DNA of 52,430 nucleotides from Candidatus Hodarchaeum mangrovi (GTDB lineage: Archaea > Asgardarchaeota > Heimdallarchaeia > Hodarchaeales > Hodarchaeaceae): positions 1 to 52,430 of the forward strand of contig JAEOUE010000138.1 in assembly GCA_016839515.1 (NCBI GenBank), given 5' to 3'. Position numbers and translations under genes: made by a program. The notes beneath the pieces were generated by a model. It saw nothing but the letters and a program-made list of their open reading frames with translations, ran no database searches and was not told the DNA's origin. Shown here piece by piece: positions 7,528 to 42,084 of the stretch (positions within the stretch are counted from its first letter, which is position 1; every line of letters starts with the position of its first letter).

Positions 7528-8274
7528 ATGCTTGAATTTAATCATAAATGTCCTATATGTTTGGAAAATGTGCAATATTCTTTTAACGAGAAAAATATTC
7601 TATCGAATATTTCTGTAAAGGTAGAATCTGAGGGTATAACAGGTGTAGTAGGCCCTAGCGGATCTGGAAAGACTACATTCCTTAAATTGATTAATAGACT
7701 TATATCTCCTACAAAAGGTCGAATTTTATTCAATGGAGAAGATACCACATTCATACCTGTTAAACAATTAAGGAAAAAAATTGGTTTAGTTCAACAAAGA
7801 CCTTTTCTATTTCCAGGAACAGTAAAAGATAACCTATTATATGGACCAAATATTTGGAAAATAAAATATTCTCTTGACGAGCTTTATTCGTTTCTATCTC
7901 GTGTAGCTCTCCCTCCTGAATTCTTAAATCTAAATGTAGAGAATCTCTCTAGCGGAGAACAACAAAGAGTTTCTTTAGGAAGGACACTTGCTAATAATCC
8001 TCAAATATTGTTATTAGATGAACCCACTAGCTCTCTAGATATAGTTTCAGAAGAAATTCTCGAAACTACATTACGAGAACTTGCACGAGAAAAGATTAAG
8101 ATCATAATTGTCACTCATAGTTTAGAACAGACTAAACGATTGACAGATCAGCTACTATTTTTAAAAAATGGAAGATTAATTGAAAAAATAAACACTAAAA
8201 CCTTTTTTGATAGATATGACGAAAAAGAAATTCGTCGATTTTTTAAAGCAAAATCTATTCATGGAGAAAACTAA
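7528..8274 (+). CDS. fetA: ABC transporter ATPase, FetA/YbbL type
   Basis: Nucleotide-binding subunit that would power the adjacent FetB-like membrane protein. Walker A is GPSGSGKT (42-49), the signature is LSSGEQQ (from 140), Walker B LLLDE (161-165) followed by SSLD, and the switch His is in VTHS. The 248-residue length is usual for this family. An N-terminal HKCPIC stretch (6-11) places a Cys-x-x-Cys pair ahead of the ABC fold, which is not part of the standard domain. Only two bases separate its stop from the fetB start, so the two are surely cotranscribed. FetAB in E. coli is linked to iron homeostasis; that role here is inferred from family and pairing only. Confidence 0.85.
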   Translation: MLEFNHKCPICLENVQYSFNEKNILSNISVKVESEGITGVVGPSGSGKTTFLKLINRLISPTKGRILFNGEDTTFIPVKQLRKKIGLVQQRPFLFPGTVKDNLLYGPNIWKIKYSLDELYSFLSRVALPPEFLNLNVENLSSGEQQRVSLGRTLANNPQILLLDEPTSSLDIVSEEILETTLRELAREKIKIIIVTHSLEQTKRLTDQLLFLKNGRLIEKINTKTFFDRYDEKEIRRFFKAKSIHGEN

Positions 8275-8276
8275 AA

Positions 8277-9071
8277 ATGATGATCTTACCAGGAATAGAA
8301 ATAATAACTGAGATCCTTCAACGTTTATCGATTTCTATTATTCTTTTAATTCTTTTAATAGCCTTAACTAAATGGCAACAAATTGGATTAGAAAAAATGT
8401 TTATCTGGAGTTTTACACGGGGTCTAGTACAAATTCTTATTATGGCATTAATTCTCGTTGTTATTTTTGCGATAACTGAGATTTTTTTGTTGGTAATTGT
8501 GTTACTATTCATGTGTTTCTTCGCTGCTTACACTGTTAAACAACGATTTCCTTATCCTAAGGTATTTCCTATAGAATCGATTGCTATCACATTTGGTAGT
8601 CTTTCTATTATCTCTATGGCTGTTATCTTAGAGATAATTCCTTTAAAAGGAGAATATATCATTCCTATGGGGGGAATGGTTATTGCAAATGTCATGGTAA
8701 TGACAGGAATTGTATTAGAACGGCTTATTTCTGATGTAAAAAAGAGTCAAGGGAATATCGAAGCAGCATTAAGTTTAGGTGATTCTCCTTGGAACAGTAT
8801 TAAGAGTATAACAAAGGAATCTTATCGTGCAGCAATGATACCAACAACAAATCGTGTTGCGGTTTTAGGCATTGTGACTATTCCAGGTTTAATGAGTGGA
8901 ATGATTATTGGAGGTGCAAACCCACTAATAGCAGCAGCATATCAAATTGTTATTTTTTTGATGATATTAACTTCAGGTTTCATCGGATCAATAATTCTCG
9001 TATTCTTCTTTATAAAAGAATTATTCACAAAAGAAGAGCAATTAAACCTTTCCTTACTTCAAATGTCTTAA
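8277..9071 (+). CDS. fetB: UPF0014/FetB-family membrane permease
   Basis: Integral membrane subunit of a FetAB (YbbLM) type transporter, associated in E. coli with iron export and peroxide resistance. It has about seven hydrophobic helices in 264 residues and the family's conserved core: EAALSLG (about 161-167), the segment SYRAAMIPTTNRVAVLGIV, IPGLMSGMIIGGANPL and the helix YQIVIFLMILTSG. Two adjacent ATGs (8277, 8280) could serve as start. It sits directly after its ATPase. The substrate is not provable from sequence; iron, another metal or an unrelated solute are all open. Confidence 0.88.
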   Translation: MMILPGIEIITEILQRLSISIILLILLIALTKWQQIGLEKMFIWSFTRGLVQILIMALILVVIFAITEIFLLVIVLLFMCFFAAYTVKQRFPYPKVFPIESIAITFGSLSIISMAVILEIIPLKGEYIIPMGGMVIANVMVMTGIVLERLISDVKKSQGNIEAALSLGDSPWNSIKSITKESYRAAMIPTTNRVAVLGIVTIPGLMSGMIIGGANPLIAAAYQIVIFLMILTSGFIGSIILVFFFIKELFTKEEQLNLSLLQMS

Positions 9072-9294: not shown

Positions 9295-9984
9295 ATGGTT
9301 GAAAAGAGAAGTTTGCTACATTGGTTTAAAGCAAATAAAAATATAACAGTTAAGGGAATCTTAATTGAGCACACAAAAGCTGTGGAAAGAACATGTAGCG
9401 AATCTATTAACTTATACAAAGCATTGAAAGGTGAACTCACTCAAAATCCTGTCGAGATAATAAGTAAAATATCTGCATTTGAAGAACAAGCTGATCAGCT
9501 GCAAGATGTTTTGGCAGAAAGAGAGCTCATTCATGGGGAATTCCCACCAAATGTTCAAGAAGATCTGTTTAGGATGATACGAAGAATTGATGAAGCAGCA
9601 AATTGGATTAAAACAGCCTCCAAAAATGCAAATTTGGTTCTTAACTTAAAATTAAATTATCCTGATAAATTACACGATTATCTTATTCAATTATCAACAA
9701 TAACTAAAGATTCTGTTGAGATTTTTTCTAAAACCCTTCAATATCTAGGAGTAAATGATGATAAGGTTATTTCTAATAGAAATAAAATAGAAAAACTTGA
9801 ACGTCAAGGTGATGAGGTATATTACCTTGCCAAAGAAACAATTCTTAAACTAGGAACCCAGCTCGATAATGCAATTTTATTTCTTTCCTTAGATACAGCA
9901 AAAGCACTTGAGAATGCTTCTGATGCCTGTAGCAAGGCCTCAGATTATCTTTACTCTATTGTTATGGCAGCACCAGTAAGATAG
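9295..9984 (+). CDS. DUF47 PhoU-like protein (first copy)
   Basis: Helical-bundle protein of the DUF47/TIGR00153 family, distant relatives of the phosphate regulator PhoU, often found beside phosphate transporters. The 229 residues are almost all helical and contain the family pattern FEEQADQLQDVL (about 62-73) followed by FPPNVQEDLFRMIRRIDEAANWI (around 82-104), and a second PhoU-type acidic helix EKLERQGDEVYYLAKE (about 163-178). PhoU relatives bind metal through such E/D-rich helices. Strong Shine-Dalgarno AGAGGAAA. It opens an operon with a fused permease, two ABC ATPases and a second DUF47 gene. The stop is TAG. Likely role: modulator of the encoded transporter at the membrane face. Confidence 0.85.
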   Translation: MVEKRSLLHWFKANKNITVKGILIEHTKAVERTCSESINLYKALKGELTQNPVEIISKISAFEEQADQLQDVLAERELIHGEFPPNVQEDLFRMIRRIDEAANWIKTASKNANLVLNLKLNYPDKLHDYLIQLSTITKDSVEIFSKTLQYLGVNDDKVISNRNKIEKLERQGDEVYYLAKETILKLGTQLDNAILFLSLDTAKALENASDACSKASDYLYSIVMAAPVR

Positions 9985-10003
9985 TTTTAAAAGGCGAAAA
10001 GCC

Positions 10004-11701
10004 ATGACCAAAAATATCAAAAATTATAGGTCAATTAGTATTATTGACTATCTTTCTGCCCTAAGTAGTAATAAGAAAATTATAAATGCTTTCTATATCT
10101 TGATTCTAATTTTTTTTCTATTTCTAATTCTAACACCAACAATATATGTATTATTTTATCTTTTTGAGAAATTTGATCTTGTAATCGCTTATTTTCAAGC
10201 AGAACCAGAATCATTCACTATGATTGCTGAAGCTTTGTATTATTCAGTTAGTGTTGCAGTTATTGTTTCAATAACTGACCTGATATTTGGTATCCCTTTG
10301 GCTTGGATGTTAGTACGAGGAAAGCTTTCTGTACGGGTTCAAAATATCCTAAATACATTCATTGAGCTTCCTTTAGCTGTTCCAACAGCAGGACTTGGTC
10401 TTTCGGTTGCATTGTTTTGGGGGAAGGTGCCTGATGTTACTGCTCCACCTTTTTCTTTAGGAATTATCACTTCTGCTCTTCCAATACTCATTCTATTTCA
10501 TTTTACTACTACTTTTCCTTATGTAGTTAGATCATTAGCGGCAATTTTAGAGGAAATTGATGTCTATCTTGAAATAGCAGGTCGAACATGTGGAGCCTCA
10601 GCTTTTACTGCAGCTCGTACAATCACAATGCCATTATTTCGTTCAGGTGTTGTCACTGCTTTAATATTGAGTTTAGCAAAGAGTCTGAGTGATACAGGAG
10701 GGGTCATGGCAGTTCTATCTGCAACCCAGATTTCTGTATGGACTGGAACAGTTTTAATTGGAACCTGGAAACACGACATTGACATTGTTAAAGGAATTAA
10801 TCTTGATTTAATTCCCCCTTTAGCATTTTTATGTGTTACAATGATATTAATGGCACTTATTTTAATGACAGCATCACGATTAATTGTTAGAAAGGGAAAA
10901 GTTCCGGTAAAAAGAGTCTGGACAACAACTGAAAAAAAATTGAGTTCTGAATTTAGTGTAAAGTCTAGAAATATAATAACACTTCTTTTCCTCACCTTTT
11001 TTGTCATTGTTCCATCCTTCTTCCTAATATTATATATACCAATTGGAATAACTGGGCCTCCGTTAATCATTGATTGGGGACGATTTGTTCAGAGTATTGT
11101 CAATTCATTATTGGTAGGTGGTATAGCAACTTGTCTGAATGTCATTCTAGGAGTTCCTATGGGGATTTTTATTTCTCGAAGGAAAAGTAGATTCAGTAAA
11201 TTTTTTGATATATTGGTTGATGTTCCTTATGTTGTCCCATCGTCTGCTTTGGGTTTTTCTGTCGGATTATTTTGGGGTGGGCAACAATTAATTGTGAACG
11301 AATTATTCTTTGTTATAATGGCTCATTCAGCTATGACTTTCCCTTTCATTGTCAGAAATGTTATTGGAGGATTAGAAGATTTAGATTTATCCTATGAAGA
11401 TACTGCAAGAACCTTAGGAGCGAAATCTTTTCACATATTTACTTTAATTACTTTACCAATAATAAAATTCTCAATTATTGCAGGAATAATTATGTCTTTT
11501 ACACGAAGTGTAGGAGAAACTGGTGCAACTTTAGCTGTTGCTTCAAATTTTGAAACTGCTCCTATATTTATTGTAAGGTTGATTGGTGAAAATCAATATT
11601 TTGGAGCTTCTCTGGCAATAATCGTCTTAATCATAATTACTAGTCTAGTAATATTCACGTTACGAGCAGTTTTCGGACAGAAAAAGACTAAGAGGGAATA
11701 A
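10004..11701 (+). CDS. ABC transporter permease with two fused membrane domains
   Basis: Single polypeptide holding both transmembrane halves of an importer: about 12 predicted helices in 565 residues. Each half ends in an EAA-type coupling loop for an ATPase: the first around YLEIAGRTCGAS with TITMPLF, followed by SLSDTGG; the second around YEDTARTLGAKS with LITLPI, followed by SVGETGATLAV. The GETGAT motif resembles sulfate/molybdate/tungstate and, more loosely, phosphate permeases. Two different ATPases follow immediately, one possibly per loop. No substrate-binding protein gene lies nearby. The PhoU-like neighbours suggest an oxyanion such as phosphate, but the substrate is not settled. 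Confidence 0.88.
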   Translation: MTKNIKNYRSISIIDYLSALSSNKKIINAFYILILIFFLFLILTPTIYVLFYLFEKFDLVIAYFQAEPESFTMIAEALYYSVSVAVIVSITDLIFGIPLAWMLVRGKLSVRVQNILNTFIELPLAVPTAGLGLSVALFWGKVPDVTAPPFSLGIITSALPILILFHFTTTFPYVVRSLAAILEEIDVYLEIAGRTCGASAFTAARTITMPLFRSGVVTALILSLAKSLSDTGGVMAVLSATQISVWTGTVLIGTWKHDIDIVKGINLDLIPPLAFLCVTMILMALILMTASRLIVRKGKVPVKRVWTTTEKKLSSEFSVKSRNIITLLFLTFFVIVPSFFLILYIPIGITGPPLIIDWGRFVQSIVNSLLVGGIATCLNVILGVPMGIFISRRKSRFSKFFDILVDVPYVVPSSALGFSVGLFWGGQQLIVNELFFVIMAHSAMTFPFIVRNVIGGLEDLDLSYEDTARTLGAKSFHIFTLITLPIIKFSIIAGIIMSFTRSVGETGATLAVASNFETAPIFIVRLIGENQYFGASLAIIVLIIITSLVIFTLRAVFGQKKTKRE

Positions 11702-11702
11702 A

Positions 11703-12920
11703 TTGAGTAATGGAAACGAGGAATTATACGATAACGGAGCAACAAAACCATTAGTTAAAGAATACCTTCCTTGGGATCTTGCAGGACAGAGTGAATTCCG
11801 AAAATATCTATGGAATTTATATTCTAAAAATTCTATAAAGATCCGTAACCTAACTGTGAAATTTGGTAAGAAAGTTGTTTTGGATAACATTCATTTAACT
11901 ATCCATCCTCAGGAATATCTAGTTATTTTAGGTCCGACAGGTGCTGGAAAAACAACGCTGTTGAGAACAATAGCTGGATTAATAAACCCACACACGGGAA
12001 GAATTTCTCTGGGTGATTTTGATTTATTAAAATTACCACCTGAAGATCGAGAAGTGGCATATTTACCTCAGAATTATTCACTATTCCCCTATTTAAATGT
12101 ACGTGATAATATTTTATTTTCTCCAAGGGTTAAAAAGACGAAGACCGAAGAAGAAATGTCTCAATTAGTTACTGAAGTCTTAGATATGGTTGGACTAAAA
12201 GATCGTTATGATGCTTTTCCTAATGAATTATCGGGGGGAATGATGCAACGATGTGCGTTAGCACGTGCTATTGCTGCTGATACAAAAATCTTTCTATTAG
12301 ATGAACCATTAAGGGCTCTAGATGCAAGACTAAATATCCAATTAAGAACAGAAATTCGAGCATTGATAAAGGAACTAGGTATAACCACCTTACATGTGAC
12401 ACATGACCAAGATGAGGCTCTTGCTGTTGCTGATCGTATTTTAATTCTGAAAAATGGAAAAATTTCTCAAATGGGGAAACCATACAAAATCTATGATAAA
12501 CCTCAAAATTATTTTTCAGCTTATTTTATTGGAGAATCCACAATTTTTGAGGGAGAGGTTACAGAAGTCACTGAAGAATGTACATTTGTAACACTTGTTT
12601 CAGGTCATAAATTATTGTGTAAGCCCTCAGAATTAAAACCAGGAGATGTTGTTAAAGTTCTTGTGAAAACTGAAGATATTACAGTAAAGAAGTCGATAGA
12701 AGAAGTGGAAGATTTCACAGGTGATAATTCGTTTCAAGGGATAATTTCTGATCAAATTTTCCTTGGAAAATTTACAAATTTATTGATTCAAATAAAAGAC
12801 ATAACCCATCCAATTATTGCACGGATTTCCTCATACGATAGTGATATTTACAAAATTGGGGATGAAGTAATTGTATACATAAGTCCGCATAGCCTCAATC
12901 CTTATGAGAGGGAAAGATAA
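11703..12920 (+). CDS. ABC importer ATPase 1, with C-terminal regulatory domain
   Basis: ATP-hydrolysing subunit of the importer. Residues 1-44 are an extra N-terminal stretch before the ABC fold (KIRNLTVKFG). Walker A is GPTGAGKT (77-84), signature LSGGMMQR (from 176, with Met instead of Gln at position five), Walker B FLLDE (197-201), RALD and the switch His in VTHDQDEA. Residues about 270-405 form two small beta domains of the TOBE kind found in CysA/PotA-type ATPases. The start is TTG one base after the permease stop, with AGAGGGA before it; it overlaps the next gene by one base (TAATG). Together with the second ATPase it would form a heterodimer under the fused permease. Confidence 0.88.
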   Translation: MSNGNEELYDNGATKPLVKEYLPWDLAGQSEFRKYLWNLYSKNSIKIRNLTVKFGKKVVLDNIHLTIHPQEYLVILGPTGAGKTTLLRTIAGLINPHTGRISLGDFDLLKLPPEDREVAYLPQNYSLFPYLNVRDNILFSPRVKKTKTEEEMSQLVTEVLDMVGLKDRYDAFPNELSGGMMQRCALARAIAADTKIFLLDEPLRALDARLNIQLRTEIRALIKELGITTLHVTHDQDEALAVADRILILKNGKISQMGKPYKIYDKPQNYFSAYFIGESTIFEGEVTEVTEECTFVTLVSGHKLLCKPSELKPGDVVKVLVKTEDITVKKSIEEVEDFTGDNSFQGIISDQIFLGKFTNLLIQIKDITHPIIARISSYDSDIYKIGDEVIVYISPHSLNPYERER

Positions 12921-14014
12921 TGCCAAATATTATAATTAAAAACCTTTCCAAAACTTTTGGGCATGTAAAAGCTCTAATTAAAGTTAATTTAGAAATTCAG
13001 GACCAGGAGTATGTTGGCATTCTCGGACCATCGGGTTGTGGCAAAACTACTCTAATAAACTGTATTACAGGGATTGTAGAACCTGATGAAGGATCAGAAA
13101 TTCTTATAGATGGAAGGAATATAATAGATCTTCCCATTGAAGATCGTGGTTTTGCAATGGTATTTCAAAGTATTACTTTGTTTCCTCATATGACAATTAA
13201 AGAAAATGTTGAATTTCCAAGTAGAATGACCGAGGTTTCAAAGGAAGAGATTGATAAAAGGACAATTAAAGCGTTAGAACTGGTTAATATATTAGCAGAA
13301 AAGAATTTGTATCCTCGTCAATTATCGAGTGGTGCCCAACAGGCAGCAGCAGTAGCTAGAGCGATCGCAAAAGGATCCAAGCTATTAATTCTTGATGAAC
13401 CAATTTCTGCTTTAGATGCTAAAGTAAGAACAGATCTACGTTATAGAATACGAAGTCTTGTAAAAGATCTTGGATTAACTGCCATTCATATTACTCACGA
13501 CCAACAAGAATGTCTATCAATCTCTGATCGTGTAGTATTAATGAAAAATGGGCGCATTCATGAGATTAATACTCCAAAAAATATGTACGAATACCCTAAT
13601 TCACTATTTACTTTGAATTTTGTAGGAGAAACAAACTTTATTGAAGGCTATATCTCCGATAAATTTGATGGTTCTGTTCAGCTTAAATTAAGAAATGATG
13701 TTACTTTAAAAATGAAGAATCAAGAGAATAAAAATATTGGTGAACCATTAGTCTTGGCAGTAAGACCTGAGAATGTAAGAATAAGTAGGAGAAAAAGTGG
13801 TGAAGAAAGCATTAAAGGAAAAATAATTGACTCTAGGTTTGCAGGAAGTTTCTATAGATTACAAATTCGATTGAGAACTGATGATATTATACTAGCGGAC
13901 TTCAAAGGGCCATTAAAACTAAATACATTGGTATATGTGTCATTTGACCCTTTAAGAACACAATTATTCCCCGTTCCCGAAGATGGATTAATGGAGGAAA
14001 TTTCTCTTGAGTAA
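12920..14014 (+). CDS. ABC importer ATPase 2, with altered signature motif
   Basis: Second ATPase of the importer, 364 residues. Walker A GPSGCGKT (36-43), Q-loop VFQSITLF, Walker B LLILDE (155-160), SALD and switch His in ITHDQQE are canonical. The signature, normally LSGGQQQR, reads LSSGAQQAAA from 135, so the third residue is Ser and the usual QQR is AQQA. A C-terminal TOBE-like domain follows (about 235-364) with LAVRPENVRIS, typical of CysA/PotA/UgpC ATPases. It overlaps the preceding gene by one base and the following DUF47 gene by eight bases. The pairing of one near-canonical and one altered ATPase suggests functional asymmetry. Confidence 0.88.
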   Translation: MPNIIIKNLSKTFGHVKALIKVNLEIQDQEYVGILGPSGCGKTTLINCITGIVEPDEGSEILIDGRNIIDLPIEDRGFAMVFQSITLFPHMTIKENVEFPSRMTEVSKEEIDKRTIKALELVNILAEKNLYPRQLSSGAQQAAAVARAIAKGSKLLILDEPISALDAKVRTDLRYRIRSLVKDLGLTAIHITHDQQECLSISDRVVLMKNGRIHEINTPKNMYEYPNSLFTLNFVGETNFIEGYISDKFDGSVQLKLRNDVTLKMKNQENKNIGEPLVLAVRPENVRISRRKSGEESIKGKIIDSRFAGSFYRLQIRLRTDDIILADFKGPLKLNTLVYVSFDPLRTQLFPVPEDGLMEEISLE

Positions 14015-14723
14015 AAAAGAAAAAAGTATGCTGAAATGGTTTAAAGAAAGAAGAAATACAAAAATCAAGCAGCTACTTTTACAACATGCAATAAAGGTCT
14101 TTGATGCTACTGCAGCTGGACAAGAATATCTAGATATAATCACAAGAGAGAATAATCCTCAAGATCCAAGATTAAAATCTATAATAAATCGAATTATAAG
14201 TTTAGAACGTGATGCAGACAAAATCGAGATTAGGTTAGGAAATGAGATTGCAAAGGGTTTTTTACCCTCAACAATACGTCAAAATTTATTTCGATTGTTA
14301 AAATCTGATGATTCAACAATCAATTTAATGAAATCAAGTATGAAATCATTGCATTTGCTGAATAATACAGATGATGAAGTCCCTATAAAAATTTTGGAAT
14401 ATTTTAAACAACTTTTGAATTTAATTCACGATTCAATTAGAATAGTTTGGATTTCGATTGAAAATCTTGGAGAAAATGACGAAATTATACTCTCAAATAA
14501 AGAAACAATCCTTGAGAACGAAAAAAAAGCAGATACTTTATTTTTAGAAGCAAAAGAAAAGATTCTAATTGGAAGAACACGAAGAGAACCTTTTTCAGCC
14601 ATTTTAAGTTTAATAGAGATCGCCACTGATTTGGAAATAGCTACTGATTCAGTTCGTGATACTGCTGAATTCTTAGTCGTCATTGTGAAAATAGGAATCG
14701 CAATTAATAAAGAAATCAAATAA
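14007..14723 (+). CDS. DUF47 PhoU-like protein (second copy)
   Basis: Second DUF47 helical-bundle protein, 238 residues, paralogous to the first gene of the operon: both begin with a charged segment ending in a Leu-x-Trp-Phe-Lys motif (SMLKWFKERRN here, SLLHWFKANKN there). PhoU-type acidic helices are SLERDADKIEIRLGNE (about 69-84) and ENEKKADTLFLEAKE (about 170-184). The TTG start lies inside the end of the ATPase 2 gene and is preceded by GGAGGA at eight bases, so translation is coupled. Having DUF47 proteins at both ends of one transporter operon suggests they act as a heteromeric regulator, one perhaps for each ATPase; this is inference. Confidence 0.85.
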   Translation: MSKKEKSMLKWFKERRNTKIKQLLLQHAIKVFDATAAGQEYLDIITRENNPQDPRLKSIINRIISLERDADKIEIRLGNEIAKGFLPSTIRQNLFRLLKSDDSTINLMKSSMKSLHLLNNTDDEVPIKILEYFKQLLNLIHDSIRIVWISIENLGENDEIILSNKETILENEKKADTLFLEAKEKILIGRTRREPFSAILSLIEIATDLEIATDSVRDTAEFLVVIVKIGIAINKEIK

Positions 14724-20620: not shown

Positions 20621-22855
20621 TTACCAGGTAGAAACTACTTTTTTTAGATTGTCAATATTCAAATAATCAGTTGTAAATGCTTTTTGCTGCATTTTTTTCG
20701 ATAAATAATGGTCATAGCGTTCTAATAGAAACTTCTCATTTGAATCAATAAGGTCTTTAGGGGAATTAACTGATTTTACAATGTTTTTGAGAAGCTCTGT
20801 TAATTCAGAAGGATTATTGATATCCTCAGAATCAAAGGTTATGAAATACGGTTCAGGATCAATTCTGGGAGGTGGACGAACATGAGAAATACCATAATCC
20901 TTTCCAATAAATCGCAATATACGATGTAAAGTTTGGTACTCTATAGTCCCGACCCAAGGAAATAAAGCAAACCGTTTTCCAGACAATTTGAACACAACCT
21001 CAGTGTCCAAATGATTTTTCGATCCCCACGTCCGAGCTTCAGTAATCCGTCTTTTTGCACCATCTTGAAGATAACCATAAAGGGTATTTTCAAGTAAAAT
21101 CGAACGCATTTTTTGCAGAACTTTAGTGTGAGTATCAGGACGGCGGCCAGGCCAGACATAGAAAGCACGTTCAATTTTTTTTACCAAAAGAAGCTTTTGA
21201 TGAGGATGAATTTCCGTTACTTCCCATGCATCACCAGCAATGAGAACAGTTTCACCAGGAAATAACATTCGATCAATGTGACCGAGTTCTCGTAAAGTGA
21301 CTTCTTCTTTAATGCTGAATTCCACAGAATAATCACGAAAAACAGCATAAAAACGAAAATTTCGAACAATTTTTTCTCCTGTTAATCCAACAATTAACCC
21401 GCCATCTTGTAATTGTTCAATATGATTGATAGAAATCAGATGTTGGATTAAATCACGGAAAGTATTTTGATTGACATATTTGAAGGGTGATAAAGTTAAA
21501 ACACGGTGAGCTAAGCTTGCAGGTGATAGCTCCCCACTACTGGCAAGAATACTCATGGTTTGATGATACAATAGACTAATCGGAAATTTTAGCTGAATCG
21601 CAGGTTCAATCCATTTTTCTTCTAAATAGAGCTGAATTATACTAATTGTCTGTAAAAAATACCATGGAAGTGTTCGGGTAAAGGAAACTTTCTCTGAAGG
21701 AGGGTCTTCTGATATGACAAACATCATTTCAGAAGGCTGATTCAAGCGTCGTCCCGATCGCCCAAGGCGTTGTACAAAGCTTGATACGGAAGAAGGAGCA
21801 AGCAGTTGAATAATTCGTTCGATTCCTCCGATATCCATACCTAATTCAAGAGTTAAGGTTGCAGCAGTAACATGAGGTTCATCATCATCTTTCATAAAGG
21901 TTTCAGCTGATTCACGAAGCAAATTAGCGATGCAAGAATGATGAACGTGGTATCTATCAGGATATCCACGGTGTAAAGCAATCTCTCGAAGTCCTCGTGT
22001 TACCAATTCTGTTGCTTCTCTTGTATTAGAAAAAATAATCACTTTCTTACCCAATGTATTTTCAAAAATATACCGATGTGAAGGGAGAGCCTCCCCAAAA
22101 ATAGGTAGAGTTTCTCTTGTGGTGGCTCCGATCCAAGTTGGTTCAAGAAAGTGTTCTACTGCCAATCTAATCTTTCGGGGTGGTTCAACAATATCAGGAA
22201 CAATGACTGGAATATTTGTGCCTGAAGCGAGCCAATTTGCTGCATAGGAAGGATCCCCAATTGTAGCTGATAAACCGATTCTACGGGGAATACGGTCAAT
22301 TTCCCGTGAAACCCTCTCCAATTGAGCTAAAATTTGTCGGCCACGATCACCACCCATAAAACTATGAACTTCATCAATTATTATAAATCGTAAATCCCCG
22401 AAAAGTCTGCATATTTCTAGTTTTTTGTTAATCAAGATACTTTCGAGGCTTTCAGGAGTTATTTGTAGTATGCCACGAGGATTTGCCATTAATTTATTCT
22501 TATGACGTTGATCAACATCACCATGCCATCTATATACAGGAATATTAGCCTCTTTTAAAAGGTTTTCAACTCGTTTAAATTGATCATTAATCAATGCTTT
22601 TAAAGGTCCAATATATAAAATACCAAGGCTAGAAGCTGGGGAAGCATCTAATAATGTTAATGCTGGAAGTAATGCTGCTTCTGTTTTCCCTGAAGCGGTA
22701 CCAGAGCATAATAATAAGTGTGAATCCGAGTCAAAAATGGCTTTTGCAGCTTCAATTTGGATTGGACGGAATTCTTCCCAACCCTCTTGATAAATCCATT
22801 CTTGAATCCAGGGTGTAAGACGGGAAAATTGTTCAGAACCAGCCAAATTTACCAA
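20621..22855 (-). CDS. Lhr-type superfamily 2 helicase, copy 2
   Basis: ATP-dependent nucleic-acid helicase of the Lhr/BrxHI kind, 744 residues. Motifs in order: Q-like region WEEFRPIQ (27-34), Walker A SGTASGKT (51-58), DEVH followed by SFMGGDRG, motif III GLSATIGD, motif IV IFSNTREA, motif V AATLTLELGMDIGG and motif VI QRLGRSGRR. The C-terminal 300 residues contain the Lhr-core hallmarks: GLTGEKIVRNFRFYAVF and LIAGDAWEVTEI. It is closely similar along its full length to the helicase just upstream, with all ATPase motifs intact, and overlaps that gene by seven bases. It is the last gene of the TerB/ATPase/helicase operon. Confidence 0.9.
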   Translation of the reverse strand: MVNLAGSEQFSRLTPWIQEWIYQEGWEEFRPIQIEAAKAIFDSDSHLLLCSGTASGKTEAALLPALTLLDASPASSLGILYIGPLKALINDQFKRVENLLKEANIPVYRWHGDVDQRHKNKLMANPRGILQITPESLESILINKKLEICRLFGDLRFIIIDEVHSFMGGDRGRQILAQLERVSREIDRIPRRIGLSATIGDPSYAANWLASGTNIPVIVPDIVEPPRKIRLAVEHFLEPTWIGATTRETLPIFGEALPSHRYIFENTLGKKVIIFSNTREATELVTRGLREIALHRGYPDRYHVHHSCIANLLRESAETFMKDDDEPHVTAATLTLELGMDIGGIERIIQLLAPSSVSSFVQRLGRSGRRLNQPSEMMFVISEDPPSEKVSFTRTLPWYFLQTISIIQLYLEEKWIEPAIQLKFPISLLYHQTMSILASSGELSPASLAHRVLTLSPFKYVNQNTFRDLIQHLISINHIEQLQDGGLIVGLTGEKIVRNFRFYAVFRDYSVEFSIKEEVTLRELGHIDRMLFPGETVLIAGDAWEVTEIHPHQKLLLVKKIERAFYVWPGRRPDTHTKVLQKMRSILLENTLYGYLQDGAKRRITEARTWGSKNHLDTEVVFKLSGKRFALFPWVGTIEYQTLHRILRFIGKDYGISHVRPPPRIDPEPYFITFDSEDINNPSELTELLKNIVKSVNSPKDLIDSNEKFLLERYDHYLSKKMQQKAFTTDYLNIDNLKKVVSTW

Positions 22856-25056
22856 TCCTTCACCATTTGTTTGAGATGTGGTAAATCTAAGTGATCAAAA
22901 ATGAATGATTTTTGTTGGAGAGTTAATGGAAGATATTCATCAAATTTATTAATCAATAATTTTTCTTTTTCATCATAAAGCATGTGTTCATTTGTGGTTA
23001 TGACTAATGATTGAATATATTCTTCTATTGTTTTAAGATCCATTGGTTCACACTCGAAACGCAAATAATAAGGAGATTGTCCACTAATTTTTGAAAATTC
23101 AAGAAAATTTGGATCACTAGTCTTTAAAACACGTTCAAGAGTCCTATATGCAGTAGTTCCAAGCCAAGGAAATAGGCAATATTTACCTTCTGCTAGCATG
23201 TATAGGTATTGAGAATCAAGATTGACTTCTCGGGCTAATTTTCGAGCTTGATTTAGACGTAAACTAGCACCAGGCTGGAGATAACTATATTCGTTAATTT
23301 CAAAAAGAATCTTACGGATTTTCTGAACAACTCTTGTGTGAATCGGAGCTACATCGCCAGGCCATATATAACGCATTCTACCAGCAACTTTTTTAACTAG
23401 CATTACTCTTTGTTTCGGTAAAGCTTCTTGGACTTCCCACATAAATCCTGCAAGTGGAAACCGTTCTCCTGGAAGTAAAAGGCTTCCTAATTTTCCTATT
23501 TCATTTGCACCTTGTTTAACAGTCCATTCCACAGAGTCCTGAAAAACTGCATAGAAATGATAATTTCTAATGATCTTTTCTCCTTCAAGTCCGACTATTA
23601 ATCCCCCATCCTCTATCTGTTCAATATGCTGGATTTCAAGTAAATGTTGGATTAATTCATTGAAATCATCCTGTGTGATTTTTCGGAAGGGAGGTAATTC
23701 AAGAAGTCGTTTAGCCAATCCTTGAGATGATAGTTCTCCGCTACTAGCCAAAATGCTCATAGTTTGATGATATAATAAACTAAAAGGATAGCTAGGTGGG
23801 GGTAATGGCTCAATCCATTTTTCTTCAAGGTAAAGTTGAATTATTGCAATGGATTGTAGAAGATCCCAGGGAAAAAGATAAGGTAAAGGTTTATTGTCAG
23901 AGGGTTCATCCTCTGAATGTACAAAAAGTATTTCAGAAACATTTGATCGTCTGCCTGATCTGCCTAACCTTTGTAAAAAACTGGTAACAGATCTAGGAGC
24001 ATTAAGTTGAATGATTCTTTCTAAAGTACCAATATCTATCCCTAATTCTAAAGTAATGGTGGCAGCGGTCGTTGTAGGATATATATCTTCTCTCATGCTT
24101 GCTTCAGTACTTTCTCGTAAAGCTCCTGCAATGCTTCCATGGTGTACATGATAATTATCTGGTTGACCTTTTCGTGCAGCTACATCTCGTAATGTAGCAA
24201 TCACACTTTCAGCTTGTTCTCTTGAATTTGTAAATATCAAGCTTTTCTTACCTAAGGTCTGTTCGTATAGAAAGTCAATTGCTGGAGGAATATTCTTAGT
24301 AGATTTAAATATTCGTGTAGCATAAGGATTTAGTTGAGAGGGTATTGGATTAGGATTTATAAAATGCTCTACAGCAAGCCGAATCTTCTTTGTTCCTCCC
24401 CCTACTATTGGAGTCTGAACCTTTTCACTTGTACCTGAGGCCAACCATGTTTCAGCAAGAGAATAATCACCAAGTGTAGCAGAAAGTCCAATTCTCCGGG
24501 GATGATATCCAATTATGGAAGCAATTCTTTTCAATTGACTTAAGATTTGGCTACCCCTATCACTATTCATAAATGAATGAACTTCGTCTATGATTATAAA
24601 TTGGAGATCGCCTAACATTCTTCTTATTTCAAGGTTCTTATTTATTAGAATGCTTTCGATTGACTCTGGTGTTATTTGCAAGACCCCAGAAGGATTTTTC
24701 ATCAGTTTCTGTTTTCGATCTTGGGGAACATCTCCATGCCATCTCCAAACACGGATATTCGCGTCTTCTAATAGACCTTCCAATCTACTAAACTGATCAT
24801 TTATCAGTGCTTTCAACGGGGAGATATATAAAATACCGATTGTTGAGGAGGGTTTTTCATACAATAGAGTTAAAGCTGGTAAGAATGCTGCTTCAGTTTT
24901 TCCTGAGGCAGTACCTGTTGATAGAAGTAAATGATCACTTGAATTAAAAATAACATCAGCTGCAGCAACTTGAATCTCTCGTAACTCTTCCCACCCTGAG
25001 GAATATATCCATTCTTGAATAAACGGAGCAAAACGATTAAAGAGATTATTACTCAT
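22849..25056 (-). CDS. Lhr-type superfamily 2 helicase, copy 1
   Basis: Paralogue of the downstream helicase, 735 residues. Motifs: WEELREIQ (22-29), Walker A TGTASGKT (47-54), DEVH with SFMNSDRG, GLSATLGD, IFTNSREQA, TAATITLELGIDIGTLER and QRLGRSGRR; the Lhr-core segments GLEGEKIIRNYHFYAVF and PLAGFMWEVQEA follow. Its start overlaps the ATPase stop by four bases (ATGA arrangement), and its end overlaps the second helicase, so all are one transcript with coupled translation. Lhr-type helicases translocate 3' to 5' on single strands; here the partner ATPase and TerB protein probably load or direct the helicase. Two copies side by side in one such cassette is unexpected. Confidence 0.9.
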   Translation of the reverse strand: MSNNLFNRFAPFIQEWIYSSGWEELREIQVAAADVIFNSSDHLLLSTGTASGKTEAAFLPALTLLYEKPSSTIGILYISPLKALINDQFSRLEGLLEDANIRVWRWHGDVPQDRKQKLMKNPSGVLQITPESIESILINKNLEIRRMLGDLQFIIIDEVHSFMNSDRGSQILSQLKRIASIIGYHPRRIGLSATLGDYSLAETWLASGTSEKVQTPIVGGGTKKIRLAVEHFINPNPIPSQLNPYATRIFKSTKNIPPAIDFLYEQTLGKKSLIFTNSREQAESVIATLRDVAARKGQPDNYHVHHGSIAGALRESTEASMREDIYPTTTAATITLELGIDIGTLERIIQLNAPRSVTSFLQRLGRSGRRSNVSEILFVHSEDEPSDNKPLPYLFPWDLLQSIAIIQLYLEEKWIEPLPPPSYPFSLLYHQTMSILASSGELSSQGLAKRLLELPPFRKITQDDFNELIQHLLEIQHIEQIEDGGLIVGLEGEKIIRNYHFYAVFQDSVEWTVKQGANEIGKLGSLLLPGERFPLAGFMWEVQEALPKQRVMLVKKVAGRMRYIWPGDVAPIHTRVVQKIRKILFEINEYSYLQPGASLRLNQARKLAREVNLDSQYLYMLAEGKYCLFPWLGTTAYRTLERVLKTSDPNFLEFSKISGQSPYYLRFECEPMDLKTIEEYIQSLVITTNEHMLYDEKEKLLINKFDEYLPLTLQQKSFIFDHLDLPHLKQMVKDW

Positions 25057-26387
25057 ATTTGAAATTCCTCATATTCTGTTCCACTTACTTCATCATCTTT
25101 ATTGAGTGTTTCCTGAGGTCTAAAATCTTCACCACTAATCAATTCTAACAATGTTTTTTTATCTGCTTGTTTTCGTAATTGATTAAGCAAAAAAATGAAT
25201 TCTCTAACGAATTCACGTGGTGTCAGTAATTTATCAGCTCCAATACGGCTGACCATGATTTTTATAAATTCTTGAATCTCTGAATCATTGATTAAAGATT
25301 TATAACTATAATATTTTTCATGAATGACGATAATTTTTGTTAGTAAAACAAAAATTTCTTCTAATGTTAATCTTTCAAGTTTTATAACAGGACCAGAAAA
25401 ATCCTGAATTCCTTCTTTTAAAAAACGACTGCCAACAAGGCGGGAATGTAGTGCTTTGTAGGAATAAAGTCCTCGGCGCTTATCCTCTAAAAATTGGGGT
25501 GTACCTCCAATAAAAACTCCAAGATATTCAGCTTTTCCCTGAAGAGTATCATTATACATTGTAAGTAATTTTTCGTAGTTGTTTACTCTTGATGTAGTAT
25601 GAGTGATCTTATAAAGATTTACTGCCTCATCAAAAAAGACCAATAATCCTTTATATCCTATCTCGGTAACAAAACGAGCCATTAGCTTAATATAATCATA
25701 CCAATTATCATCAGTGATTATAATACTCAAACCAGGAATAGCATTTCGAGCTTCTGTTTTTGTTGGATATTCTCCGCGTAACCACTTTAATGCTGCCTCT
25801 TTAATGCTATCATCTTGTGTTCTGTGTCCATGCCAATAAGTTGAAATGACATTTGCGAAATCAAATCCATGAACTAAATCTTTAATAGTTGATATTGCTT
25901 CGAGAATTTTCTCATCAACTTTCTCTGTAAATAATGTATCTTGTGGTTTAATTCCTTTTGCTACAACTTCACTTTGAATTGAAGATATCCATTTTTCTAA
26001 AATTGCTGTTAAAGCTCCTCCATTGGGTCTTGTTTTTGTCGAAAGGTTTTTCATTAATTCACGATACGTTGCGACTCCCTTTTCCCCTGCTCCAATAAAT
26101 CGTCGTTCTGGGGAGAGATCTACATCACAAACAACAAATTCCTGTTGCATAGCGTAATTTCTGATTAATTGAATCAAAAAACTCTTTCCAGAGCCAAATC
26201 GGCCTATGAAAAACCGAAAACCAGCTCCACCCATTTTGATATTCTCTAAATCTTCAATAATTGATTCAATTTCCTCTCTTCGCCCCACTGCGATATGTTC
26301 TAATCCAATTCTTGGAACGACTCCTGCTGATAATGCTTTAAGAATAGTAGCTGAGACTCGTGATGGAATACGTATATCATGCGACAT
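25053..26387 (-). CDS. DUF2791/BrxD-like P-loop ATPase
   Basis: AAA-like ATPase of 444 residues matching the DUF2791 family, which includes BrxD of type 2 BREX loci and the ATPase of TerB-linked helicase cassettes. Walker A GRFGSGKS (62-69), Walker B LLVFFDE (248-254) running into AVNLYKI, then NNYEKLLTMYNDTLQG and FIGGTPQFLEDKRRGLYSY (around 290-315), all characteristic of the family. The N-terminal VPRIGLEHIAVGRREEI is also typical. It lies 15 bases after the TerB gene and overlaps the first helicase gene by four bases. Likely role: energy-dependent assembly or loading of the helicase-TerB complex on DNA. That role is inferred, as no mechanism is visible in the sequence. Confidence 0.88.
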   Translation of the reverse strand: MSHDIRIPSRVSATILKALSAGVVPRIGLEHIAVGRREEIESIIEDLENIKMGGAGFRFFIGRFGSGKSFLIQLIRNYAMQQEFVVCDVDLSPERRFIGAGEKGVATYRELMKNLSTKTRPNGGALTAILEKWISSIQSEVVAKGIKPQDTLFTEKVDEKILEAISTIKDLVHGFDFANVISTYWHGHRTQDDSIKEAALKWLRGEYPTKTEARNAIPGLSIIITDDNWYDYIKLMARFVTEIGYKGLLVFFDEAVNLYKITHTTSRVNNYEKLLTMYNDTLQGKAEYLGVFIGGTPQFLEDKRRGLYSYKALHSRLVGSRFLKEGIQDFSGPVIKLERLTLEEIFVLLTKIIVIHEKYYSYKSLINDSEIQEFIKIMVSRIGADKLLTPREFVREFIFLLNQLRKQADKKTLLELISGEDFRPQETLNKDDEVSGTEYEEFQI

Positions 26388-26402
26388 TTTGGACTACCTA
26401 TG

Positions 26403-29400
26403 TTATGAAATAATAAATTCAAATTCCTCTTTATATTCCTCTATCAAGGTAAAATGTTCTGAATCAATAATTAAATCACCAATGATCTCAAGGGCAATTT
26501 CATTCATCTGCTCTATCATCGTTTGGGGTAGAAGTAATTGTTCATCAGCTATTTTTGTTATCAATTCTATTAAATTTTCAGCCTTAAGGATAATTTTGAT
26601 TATTTGCTGCTGATTGGAAGTCAATGAATGCCAAAGTTCAAGTAATGATTCTCTAATACTGATATTTTCATTAAGAGGGGTTTTCAAGTTTTCTATAGAA
26701 GTATGCTTGGCCTCTTGTAATAAATTCTTGGTTTCTTTGTCATCTAATTCTTCAAATTCCTCACTAGTACTTAATAATGATTGAACTACTTCTGAATCTT
26801 TAGTTAATTTTCTAACTTGGGTTCGATCTAAATTTATTGTACCTGATTGAACTTCTAATGCAATTTGCGAAATTTCTGGGGTCAGATCTAAATTAAAAGC
26901 TTCTAGGCAATAGTGATCTATTATTGCTCTTATCTCTGGTATTTCAAGATTTACTTTTAATGAACCTTTGGTTGAATCAATAGCTGCTTCTCTTAATCTA
27001 TTTTGAATATATTTAAGGATATTAATGAGTATTTCCTTTAAAATAGGTGGATAGGAAGTAAAAGTAATTATTTTGTTTTCGCCATAATATCGTGCTCTTG
27101 AAAAAGGTATTCGTTTCTCTAAAACAGCATTAAAATATTGAAAAAGGTTTTTTTCAAATCGGTTTTTATAATAAGAGAGGATTTTTTTCATAATTGCCTT
27201 AACATGCCGATTAAAAGTTTGTTTATCAAGACGTTGATAATATGGAGTTTTGGAATATCCCAGCCAATCATAATAAAGATCCAAGTCAATTTCAAATTCA
27301 TTGGTTAATGTTTGTGATATTAATAACTCTCTGAGTTCGTCAACTATCTTCTTAAGACGTTTAGTGTTTAACCATTTATCAAATTTTTTTAATACGGCAA
27401 ATTGAATATCTACTGGAGTATCTTGTACAATTAGATATTCAATTATCCACTCTGGAAGTAGTTCATCAAGTTGTGAATATTCATTTCGATAATTAAGCCA
27501 TAATACAAGTAAATTTTGATAACCTGATAAAACAGATTCAATTCCTAGATTATTTATAATTTCATAGGCATAGAGTAAGATATATCCTAATTGAGTTTCA
27601 ATATACCGTTCTTTTCTAATATTAGCGCGAAAAAAATAATAATACTTTAATTGTGATTCTGTCATCTCACGAAAATCTGGTCGATAAGCATAAAGAGGAA
27701 CAAGATTTATTGGTTGATCTATACTGCCTTTTTTAATATTTTTTTTCGCAAATTCGATAAAGGATAATGTCTCTTGAGGTTCTCGTTCTTTATAATATAA
27801 TAAAAATCTCGTTACTTGGTTTTCTATAATCTTCTCGATATCTTTATCCAAAAAATTACTTTTTCTAATGTCCTTGAATCTATAATATAACTTTAATTTG
27901 TTTTCTAGCTGCCTTATAATATCACTAATAAATGACAGTAGAGGTATATGTTTAGAATATGGATATAATTCTACTACTCTAGTTGGTTTTAATGCTGCTC
28001 TCTCAAAGGCAAATCTTGGTTTTTTAGATGGTTGGAATTTCTCTAAAATTCCTCCTCCTTCAATATCTATTAAGTATTTATCAATTTCGTTCAAAATTTG
28101 AGGAATAAGATCATTTAAAATATCAGTTTTTATAAGATAAAATGGTGAATTAAATAAATCATTATTTCCAAGAGTATTTATCCATTCAATTGGCATTTTG
28201 TTAAATGAGACCTTAAAGATATTTAAGATTGAATCTAATCCCTCAATAATATACTCTGTAGGATTTACTAATATCTCTGTTAAAATGTCTGTACTTAGAT
28301 CTTGAATTTCATATAATAAAACATAATCTGTTATCCATTGAATCAGATACCTATCTAGTTTAGGAAAATGTTTTCGATAGTTGATCCAAATGGTAGTAAG
28401 TTCATTAAATCCTTCTCTATTTCCCTTCTCCAAAATATCATAAATTAAGACAAAAATATAGGACAAATCTGTTCTAATGAAATTGTTTGCACGAATTTCT
28501 TCAACCCAATAGTCGTACCATGTTCTCTGATCTTCTGTCATTGATTGAAGAGTAGGCCAATATTGTTTAAAGGGAACAAATCTTGGTTTTTTTGATATTG
28601 GTTCTTGTTCTTCTTTTTGGAGAATAGTATCAAAATTATTTTTAGTGCTTTCTTGAAAAAAAGCCTTTTGATTTGTAATATTTTTCGACATTGTCTTCAT
28701 TTTATAATCTAATAAAGTCAATTCCTTTTTAAGATCAAGAGGTTGAATATCAACCCCAGAAAAATTGGTAGATTGTGAATTTAAATTTATTTCATATTCT
28801 GCAAATCTAGGTTCCATTTTAGTATCGTTAGATTCTTGAATATTCTCAAAGGTATTGTGGAAGAAATTATTGATTATAGTTTGAATTTCTAAATCGAGGA
28901 ATAATTTCTTAATGATTGGTCGTCTTTGAATTTTTAATTCAATATAGTTTAAAATTTCTGACAGAATCCTCTTTAATTCTACGTTTGATGCTAACCATTT
29001 GAAATATTGGTCAATTAAAATTGTTGGAGTAATTTGAGGAGAAACTATTAGATTAAATTTCGAATTAGGTTGATAAAATTGAAAAATTCCAACATTCTCT
29101 GTTTTTTCATAGTGTTCATTAATTTTTTCAATAATTGGAGTTACAATTTGTTGCATAGTATGGAAATTTCCACTTTTACAATAATCACTCCCATAAACTG
29201 ATGAATAGACTATATAATTTAACATTTTAAGAGGAAATTGAGTTCTAAGGCATTCCAAATACTTAAAGAGAAATAATTTAACCTGTCTATCAGATATGGA
29301 ATATCCTTCAGTACCAACTAGAGTTCCTTTAGGATTTAAAATGAATTGACCTTTTGAGTGAAAATATCCCCAAATCATTACTTCTACTATAATTTTTTGA

Positions 29401-29549
29401 GGAGCCGTGCTATCTTGTGCACTTTTTTTGTATACGTGCCCTATAACTTCAACTGTTCTTGCTTCTTCTCCTTGATCTTCGAGAACTGGGACTTTTATTA
29501 TGATTGAAAAAAATTCTCCTTGATTGACTGTCTTTCCAGGATGAACCAA
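26403..29549 (-). CDS. Large TerB_N/TerB_C-domain protein
   Basis: First and largest gene of the operon, at least 1048 residues. Residues about 322-410 match TerB_N (PFKQYWPTLQSMTEDQRTWY, DLSYIFVLIYDILEK, WINYRKHFPKLD). A second, diverged copy is at about 613-710 (YRPDFREMTESQLKYYYFF, LGYILLYAYEIINN, WLNYRNEYSQLD). The C-terminus (about 890-1048) matches TerB_C, with INLDRTQVRKL and MIEQMNEIALEIIGDLII. TerB_N and TerB_C flank a metal-binding TerB domain in many stress-response proteins; no TerB core is obvious here. The visible frame begins with a poor TTG, and coding sequence clearly continues upstream (29550-29676), so the true N-terminus is longer. No nuclease motif seen. Confidence 0.85.
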   Translation of the reverse strand: MVHPGKTVNQGEFFSIIIKVPVLEDQGEEARTVEVIGHVYKKSAQDSTAPQKIIVEVMIWGYFHSKGQFILNPKGTLVGTEGYSISDRQVKLFLFKYLECLRTQFPLKMLNYIVYSSVYGSDYCKSGNFHTMQQIVTPIIEKINEHYEKTENVGIFQFYQPNSKFNLIVSPQITPTILIDQYFKWLASNVELKRILSEILNYIELKIQRRPIIKKLFLDLEIQTIINNFFHNTFENIQESNDTKMEPRFAEYEINLNSQSTNFSGVDIQPLDLKKELTLLDYKMKTMSKNITNQKAFFQESTKNNFDTILQKEEQEPISKKPRFVPFKQYWPTLQSMTEDQRTWYDYWVEEIRANNFIRTDLSYIFVLIYDILEKGNREGFNELTTIWINYRKHFPKLDRYLIQWITDYVLLYEIQDLSTDILTEILVNPTEYIIEGLDSILNIFKVSFNKMPIEWINTLGNNDLFNSPFYLIKTDILNDLIPQILNEIDKYLIDIEGGGILEKFQPSKKPRFAFERAALKPTRVVELYPYSKHIPLLSFISDIIRQLENKLKLYYRFKDIRKSNFLDKDIEKIIENQVTRFLLYYKEREPQETLSFIEFAKKNIKKGSIDQPINLVPLYAYRPDFREMTESQLKYYYFFRANIRKERYIETQLGYILLYAYEIINNLGIESVLSGYQNLLVLWLNYRNEYSQLDELLPEWIIEYLIVQDTPVDIQFAVLKKFDKWLNTKRLKKIVDELRELLISQTLTNEFEIDLDLYYDWLGYSKTPYYQRLDKQTFNRHVKAIMKKILSYYKNRFEKNLFQYFNAVLEKRIPFSRARYYGENKIITFTSYPPILKEILINILKYIQNRLREAAIDSTKGSLKVNLEIPEIRAIIDHYCLEAFNLDLTPEISQIALEVQSGTINLDRTQVRKLTKDSEVVQSLLSTSEEFEELDDKETKNLLQEAKHTSIENLKTPLNENISIRESLLELWHSLTSNQQQIIKIILKAENLIELITKIADEQLLLPQTMIEQMNEIALEIIGDLIIDSEHFTLIEEYKEEFEFIIS

Positions 29550-40776: not shown

Positions 40777-42084
40777 TTAAACTGGTTTCAGATAACCCCA
40801 TTTCTCTAATGCCCGTTTTAATTCAGGGCTAGAGCGAGCCTTCTCTTCTAGTGTTATGTTTTCTTTCCATGCTTCAATTGCTTGAACTGTTGCTTTACTC
40901 CCAGCATATGTACCATCTGGATGACCATGAATACCTCCACCAACCTGTAATACCATGTCAGTCGTTCCATACACGGTTAAAACTTCGGGTAACACTCCTG
41001 GATGCAATCCTCCTGATGCACAGGGCAATGTTGCTTTCATCGTTCCCCAAGATTGAGATAGGTGTCTTCCTTCATCTTCTAAGATTTCTTGATTAAGTAA
41101 TAAATCGCGCATATCAAGAACATCCTGTTTTGGGCTATCTAATTTACCTACCACGGTACCAATATGGATAGTATCCACTCCAATTAGTCTCATTAATTTT
41201 GCAAGAAAGTACATACTAATTCCATGATTAGAATGCTTTGTAAAAGTTGCATGCATAGCACGATGAGCGTGAATTGCCATATCTAAATCCCCGGCTAGAT
41301 TACGCATTGTTTGTACAGCAGAAAATCCAGTTGTTACAATATCAACCATGAAGTATTTAAAGCCATTTTCATGAATGATTTCCACTCTTTTCTCCATTTC
41401 ATGTGTTTCAGCTGTTACGTTGATCAAAGCATCTTTAATTTCTCCAGTTTCTTGTTCTGCTTTATCACGGGTTTTAGCCAGTTGCTCAACTCGATCTTTA
41501 AATTTATTAAACGATTGAGAGGTTAAATTTTCATCATCTTTAATTAAGTCCACTCCTCCAGTCCAGGCATCCCACCCTACTTTACAATGTTGTTCAACAG
41601 TCATTCCAATCTTAGGTTTAGGGACACAGGCCAATAAAGGTCCTTCTTTTTTAAATATTCGTTCAATTGCCTCAACTCCCATATTTGGACCAGGTGATCC
41701 TTTAATATATTCAATAGGTAAAGAAGTATCAATTAAGCGTAAATTCTTAACCGCTTTCATCCCAAAAATATTACCTGCAATACCTGACATGAGTTGAGGA
41801 ATATTATTAAGTTCCCATAATACCAGAGGATAGGAGATCTTAACCAAGTTGTCAGTATTCCAGAACGATCTCCCTCTCATGCTATAAATTCGATCATCAA
41901 GAGTTTCTAACGTAGTCCAAGTCCCAATTGAGGATTCAGAAGCTAATCTTCCTATTGTATCATCAATTGTAATCTCATCTGCTTTATCAAAGTAATAAAG
42001 CGCAATTAATTCATCGCTTTTTGGTTTATATCCCCGATCGATGAAATCATGATACCATTCAATTTTTTCTTTGTCATTGGTCAT
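40777..42084 (-). CDS. rbcL: RuBisCO large subunit, form III type
   Basis: Carboxylates ribulose-1,5-bisphosphate to two 3-phosphoglycerates. All residues that define an active enzyme (spinach numbers in brackets) are present: Glu50 (60), Thr55-Trp56 (65-66), Asn105 (123), Lys156 and Lys158 (175, 177), carbamylated Lys182 with Asp184-Glu185 (201, 203-204), His274-Arg275 (294-295), His307 (327), loop 6 Lys314 (334), Ser357 (379) and GGG at 382-384. The 435-residue length and N-terminus fit archaeal form III, which works in AMP/nucleoside salvage. Loop 6 reads GKLDSPKQD rather than the usual GKLEG. GGAG precedes the ATG. No small subunit, phosphoribulokinase, AMP phosphorylase or R15P isomerase gene is in the window. 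Confidence 0.93.
   Translation of the reverse strand: MTNDKEKIEWYHDFIDRGYKPKSDELIALYYFDKADEITIDDTIGRLASESSIGTWTTLETLDDRIYSMRGRSFWNTDNLVKISYPLVLWELNNIPQLMSGIAGNIFGMKAVKNLRLIDTSLPIEYIKGSPGPNMGVEAIERIFKKEGPLLACVPKPKIGMTVEQHCKVGWDAWTGGVDLIKDDENLTSQSFNKFKDRVEQLAKTRDKAEQETGEIKDALINVTAETHEMEKRVEIIHENGFKYFMVDIVTTGFSAVQTMRNLAGDLDMAIHAHRAMHATFTKHSNHGISMYFLAKLMRLIGVDTIHIGTVVGKLDSPKQDVLDMRDLLLNQEILEDEGRHLSQSWGTMKATLPCASGGLHPGVLPEVLTVYGTTDMVLQVGGGIHGHPDGTYAGSKATVQAIEAWKENITLEEKARSSPELKRALEKWGYLKPV

Follow-up and report, generated by a model that had tools for sequence, protein, structure and literature searches.

In bacteria, regulators of the DUF47 family (PF01865; PitR) are tied to the PitA carrier and PhoU is tied to the ABC importer Pst; PitA occurs in 97.8% of the bacterial genomes having PitR (PMC13170248). 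A first-pass annotation of the DNA analyzed here had likewise taken DUF47 proteins to be normally linked to Pit carriers, in agreement with that work. In E. coli, PhoU binds PstB, and the conformation of Pst signals phosphate (PMC5775613). Among Asgard archaea, SulT homologs were assigned to tungstate or vanadate in an earlier survey (PMC7997004). In the literature that we searched, which lay mostly outside subscription journals, nothing describes a DUF47 protein paired with an ABC importer.

The Hodarchaeal operon described below resembles several known systems in part. With PstSCAB-PhoU it shares an ABC importer core, a predicted PhoU-fold regulator encoded last in the operon, and two ATPase genes, as in the tandem pstB genes of some Firmicutes pst-phoU loci (PMC12096839); unlike that system, it has a fused permease scoring far below the PstA and PstC cutoffs, lacks PstS, and carries a regulator of PF01865 instead of one with two PF01895 domains. 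The regulator family is the same as in PitA-PitR (PF01384 with PF01865), but here the partner of DUF47 is an ABC importer, and the Pit-DUF47 pair of the same genome lies on another contig (C148). ModBC, WtpBC, and CysTW represent the nearest sequence families of the permease, and ModB is among its nearest structures; the present locus differs from them in having fused halves, two distinct ATPases, an extra DUF47, no substrate-binding protein (SBP) found, and scores below the cutoffs. The ferric importer FbpBC of Thermus (PDB 9j4r) is a one-chain double permease and thus a solved precedent for the fusion, but it is 18% identical to the permease here and, to our knowledge, has no DUF47 protein. 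An ABC importer with a PhoU-like regulator is a known kind of system; the points of interest are that DUF47 accompanies this importer family and that the Hodarchaeal branch has no recognizable SBP.

The Hodarchaeal operon and its DUF47 genes

The window (i.e., the whole stretch of DNA analyzed; 52,430 nucleotides) is contig C58 of a metagenome-assembled genome (MAG) of a Hodarchaeal (Asgard) archaeon, which is 91% complete with 6% contamination. The operon comprises five genes, all on the + strand, listed here from 5' to 3':

9295 to 9984, +: DUF47-A (PhoU_div, PF01865), the 5' copy, 229 aa; Pfam score 51.3 bits (cutoff, 24.4 bits)
10004 to 11701, +: fused double permease with two type I importer transmembrane halves, 565 aa; BPD_transp_1 matched twice
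11703 to 12920, +: ABC ATPase 1, 405 aa; assigned by ABC_tran and catalytic motifs
12920 to 14014, +: ABC ATPase 2, 364 aa, with a C-terminal TOBE domain; assigned by ABC_tran, TOBE_2, and catalytic motifs
14007 to 14723, +: DUF47-B (PhoU_div), 238 aa; Pfam score 39.9 bits (same cutoff), with placement from the tree and gene distances

This order, with overlaps of 1 base between the ATPase genes (position 12920) and 8 bases between ATPase 2 and DUF47-B (14007 to 14014), is as the first-pass annotation described it, and seven relatives (L042 to L046, L049, and L050) share the 8-base ATPase/DUF47 overlap. Directly upstream of the operon (7528 to 9071, +) lies a FetA/FetB-like iron-efflux ABC pair, which was not seen upstream of orthologous operons. 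In seven Hodarchaeal genomes, the upstream position is taken by a divergent gene for a DUF389 membrane protein (L043, 5930 to 6934; equivalents in L044 to L047, L049, and L051), which is absent in the window and in G002.

A permease ortholog was identified in 12 of the 14 genomes of the order. The five-gene form with two DUF47 genes recurs in G002 and G008 but not beyond them; seven genomes (G001, G003, G004, G005, G007, G010, and G011) carry a four-gene form, permease-ATPase-ATPase-DUF47, without the 5' DUF47 gene. The 5' side of the operon is off the contig in G013, as is the 3' side in G012. The permease of G008 (CP070760) appears split, but both breakpoints are 100-base runs of N, pointing to a scaffold gap and not to gene fission. 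DUF47 adjoins the transporter in all 10 Hodarchaeal loci in which the relevant end is visible and lies within 2.1 kb of it in 31 of 32 related Asgard loci (see below); this gene order is therefore not due to chance. Poor conservation of DUF47 with the transporter, which the first-pass annotation had named as evidence against its reading, was thus not what we observed.

The DUF47 profile matches the PhoU-like structures 3l39 and 2iiu/2olt and, weakly, PhoU 1sum. The ExxxD motif that characterizes PhoU metal sites is retained in both copies: positions E63/A66/D67 and D99 show no variation (15 of 15), and E169/D173 are conserved at 90% or more. A PhoU-like fold is supported for these proteins at the sequence level. 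A maximum-likelihood tree resolves the operon DUF47 proteins of the window, G002, and G008 into two sister clades (joined at 99/84), one of 5' copies and one of 3' copies, and both neighbor the lone DUF47 found in four-gene operons; the DUF47 that accompanies Pit in the window genome (contig C148) is a separate gene on a distant branch. These positions indicate that the pair stems from a duplication within the DUF47 lineage of the operon itself. A design of one DUF47 per ATPase, as first proposed, is therefore better described as a recent and local state: two DUF47 genes occur only in the window and two relatives, the second being a lineage-specific duplicate, and in seven further genomes of the order a single DUF47 gene accompanies two ATPase genes.

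Permeases and ATPases of the two branches

A search of 228 Asgard genomes across the phylum revealed fused permeases of this family in 75 genomes. Most of the loci that we retrieved represent a sister system, encoding an anchored SBP, a fused permease, two ATPases, and DUF47. The SBP is SBP_bac_11-like (374 aa in L053), and its profile matched 62 genomes belonging to 26 of 62 genera. It scored above the cutoff of no named NCBIfam family (best weak match, thiosulfate/sulfate CysP), its model is about equally similar to sulfate- and polyamine-binding proteins, and a sequence search of the PDB gave no matches. Among the 32 sister loci with an SBP, a permease, and both ATPases (contig C73, discussed below, was left out), DUF47 is at most 124 bp away and in the same orientation in 26 (3' end, 23; 5' end, 3), and in 5 it is encoded on the other strand at a distance of up to 2.1 kb; it was not seen in the remaining locus. 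This near-constant linkage marks DUF47 as a conserved trait of the importer family. Because many Asgard lineages pair PF01865 with an ABC importer, the Pit-only rule fails in these archaea. Having two ATPase genes is usual for this family and is no by-product of two regulators; the first-pass annotation had taken one ATPase gene to be the norm for ABC importers.

Other arrangements of DUF47 were also seen. In family f19, Pit (PHO4) genes have DUF47 on both sides (L118, L132, L134, L136, and L112), one copy being related to the ABC-linked DUF47 and one not. A 650-aa fusion of an MFS transporter with a C-terminal DUF47 domain (L055, 9705 to 11657, −; contig C41 of the same genome as the window) represents another transporter type joined to DUF47.

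The Hodarchaeal permease matches BPD_transp_1 in two stretches, with intact EAA coupling loops in both halves. Its closest named families transport sulfate, molybdate, and tungstate, and every score is below the curated cutoff (WtpB, 150.5 versus 340 bits; ModB, 141.8 versus 182.6 bits; PstA, 47.7 versus 193.45 bits; PstC, 34 versus 196.45 bits); we therefore rejected its assignment to any named sulfate, molybdate, tungstate, thiamine, or phosphonate family. The permease was also modeled with AlphaFold2 (24-sequence alignment; pLDDT, 85). The model consists entirely of helices and lacks any additional extracellular domain able to stand in for a binding protein, and its best full-length Foldseek match in the PDB is FbpBC of Thermus (9j4r), followed by ModB and PstA. 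In a permease tree without the long-branched f23 copies, the Hodarchaeal permeases join sequences of the same class (76/90; node not starred). GETGAT motifs had been read as a sign of an oxyanion substrate; the permease is indeed of oxyanion type, but in the window the motif is confined to the second half, the first half having SDTGGV. In all 11 Hodarchaeal permeases, the first half reads AKSLSDTGGV and the second TRS[VI]GETGAT, versus [TA]RS[LI]GETGA[TS] in the first half of all 34 sister-branch permeases; the Hodarchaeal first half is changed in a lineage-specific and invariant way. Judged by these features, the operon is assigned as encoding the core of a type I ABC importer of the sulfate/molybdate/tungstate/phosphate group.

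Both ATPases match ABC_tran and TOBE_2, and the Walker A and B motifs, Q-loop, signature, and H-loop expected of an importer are present in both. ATPase 1 is consensus throughout (Walker A, GPTGAGKTT; signature, LSGGMMQ; H-loop, VTHDQ). ATPase 2 has GPSGCGKTT, LSSGAQQ, and ITHDQ, with LSSG in the window versus LSGG in most relatives. All 11 Hodarchaeal pairs, like L109, have consensus or near-consensus motifs in both ATPases, and so does L148 apart from a divergent Walker A in its first ATPase. With intact EAA loops and catalytic motifs of this quality in all 11 orthologs, the genes are under selection as an importer core.

The SBP-bearing branch differs in this respect. In its first ATPase, the LSGG signature is lost in 34 of 34 readable sequences (FGNPGLQ, LSAPDWQ, and others), with Walker A/B, Q, and H kept; in the second, the signature is kept, but every sequence (34 of 34) lacks the Q-loop Gln, and 26 of 34 lack the H-loop His (these counts include C73 and L145, the upstream end of which is off the contig). 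From these complementary losses, the sister branch is predicted to have one composite ATP site of consensus type and one that is degenerate, versus two consensus sites predicted for the Hodarchaeal importer. In the literature searched, complementary ATPase degeneracy is found mainly in exporters, and here it is seen in an importer. The sequence grouping also appears to be swapped, Hodarchaeal ATPase 1 clustering with sister ATPase 2 and vice versa (support, 91/90; p-AU of the unswapped tree, 0.06). With the sister ATPases degenerate and the order apparently swapped, a derivation of the Hodarchaeal operon from the modern sister operon by loss of the SBP is weakened; because lost catalytic motifs are unlikely to be regained, two sister branches are the better reading.

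Search for a binding protein

The first-pass annotation had noted that the operon lacks a binding protein, and this observation holds: no such gene lies inside or beside the operon in the window, and no conserved partner emerged from the families searched. The search covered three Pfam families (SBP_bac_11, SBP_bac_8, and PBP_like_2) and a custom profile of the sister-type SBP, and within these no cognate SBP was found. The sister-type profile is absent from 13 of the 14 genomes of the order; its sole match is on contig C73 of the window's MAG, which is probably foreign (see below). Two further lineages (G014 and G165) have a related permease with neither an adjacent SBP nor a match to the sister-type SBP profile.

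A binding protein might nevertheless be encoded elsewhere, or the permease might borrow one from another ABC system. The range of families searched, the incompleteness of most genomes (MAGs), and SBP hits without a listed permease in some relatives (e.g., G005:C183, G006:C222, and G013:C124) leave room for such an arrangement. On the other hand, none of the three Pfam families is present in all operon-bearing genomes: SBP_bac_11 was not found in G007 and G008, SBP_bac_8 was not found in G000, G008, and G013, and PBP_like_2 was not found in 9 of the 12. Many of the proteins that were found adjoin their own permease, and the sister-type SBP is restricted to C73. We therefore consider a remote or borrowed partner possible but somewhat unlikely. 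The Hodarchaeal branch provides a natural setting in which to ask if the core of a type I importer can work without a binding protein.

Substrate and proposed mechanism

Evidence on the substrate comes from the sister branch. In 10 of the 16 f19 genomes, a Pit (PHO4) or PstC gene is found no more than 12 kb from the operon, whereas random placement would give 0.23; the genomes are related by descent, and the 10 cases therefore correspond to fewer independent events. Two f18 genomes have PstC within 12 kb of the operon, and phosphodiesterase genes flank eight f19 loci. This Pit/Pst neighborhood was not seen in the Hodarchaeal branch, and no Pit carrier (PF01384) occurs among the scanned neighbors in the window. 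PstC was not found in 13 of the 14 genomes of the window's order, which we count in favor of the reading proposed below. Phosphate or another phosphorus oxyanion is the most likely substrate, an assignment extended to the Hodarchaeal branch from its sister. Sulfate and tungstate, which had also been put forward, are less well supported than phosphate by the sister-branch gene neighborhood. Uptake of tungstate, molybdate, or sulfate would fit the nearest named permease families, the earlier assignment of Asgard SulT homologs to tungstate and vanadate (PMC7997004), and the weak match of the sister SBP to CysP. However, all permease family matches are below the curated cutoffs, DUF47 is a regulator of phosphate systems (PMC13170248), and the f19 operon lies among Pit, Pst, and phosphodiesterase genes; a substrate other than a phosphorus compound thus seems unlikely to us. 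A possible Asgard phosphate system, perhaps annotated as tungstate or sulfate uptake, becomes testable, in archaea that belong to a group related to the ancestors of eukaryotes.

The reading that we favor, and that we are about as ready to doubt as to accept, is that of a type I ABC importer that takes up phosphate or a related oxyanion, in which DUF47 plays the role that PhoU plays for Pst and which in the Hodarchaeal branch has no recognizable SBP. The core would consist of one fused permease, supplying both halves, and an ATPase heterodimer driving import with ATP. The PhoU-like DUF47 proteins would sit on the cytoplasmic, ATPase side and, by analogy with PhoU, would regulate the importer, either throttling uptake or reporting on it. 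The family is Asgard-wide, with an anchored binding protein in the other branch; the Hodarchaeal branch would import without one or with one of an unrecognized type, and in the sublineage of the window DUF47 was duplicated, with one copy at each end of the operon. In its boldest form, the proposal would be an SBP-free ABC importer whose gating depends on a pair of paralogous PhoU-like proteins, one for each ATPase, derived within a third, Asgard-wide pairing (PitR-type regulator with ABC importer) that breaks the scheme of "PhoU with Pst, PitR with Pit"; we consider that full combination quite unlikely.

The SBP-less complex could instead serve as a sensor, its conformational cycle reporting ATP/phosphate status via the two DUF47 proteins with little transport. 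The lack of a substrate-capture subunit, the duplicated regulator, the invariant change from TRSLGETGAT to AKSLSDTGGV in the first permease half, and the conformational signaling of Pst itself (PMC5775613) are consistent with this role, but the conservation of both ATPases and both EAA loops argues for transport, and no kinase was noticed in a non-systematic inspection of the genes beside the operon. We regard a sensor with little transport as very doubtful.

Contig C73 (L053; 6.6 kb) carries a full SBP-permease-ATPase-ATPase-DUF47 set, and it was considered and rejected as the source of the missing partner. Its SBP is 72 to 73% identical to the closest f19 proteins, its permease, ATPases, and DUF47 nest inside f19 in the trees, and its 4-mer profile correlates with that of the window at 0.28, versus 0.39 to 0.57 for equally sized pieces of the window; sequence identity, placement in the trees, and composition mark C73 as probably foreign to the MAG. 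That C73 is the genome's own complete copy, making the five-gene operon merely a paralog, is highly improbable: the same evidence, the absence of this SBP from all other genomes of the order, and the 6% contamination listed for the MAG speak against it. A recent transfer is possible.

Elsewhere in the window, a Shango-type anti-phage operon occupies positions 20621 to 29549 (−) of this Asgard genome:

26403 to 29549, −: SngA
25053 to 26387, −: SngB
22849 to 25056 and 20621 to 22855, −: two SngC helicases in tandem

A homolog of the RuBisCO large chain is encoded at positions 40777 to 42084 (−).
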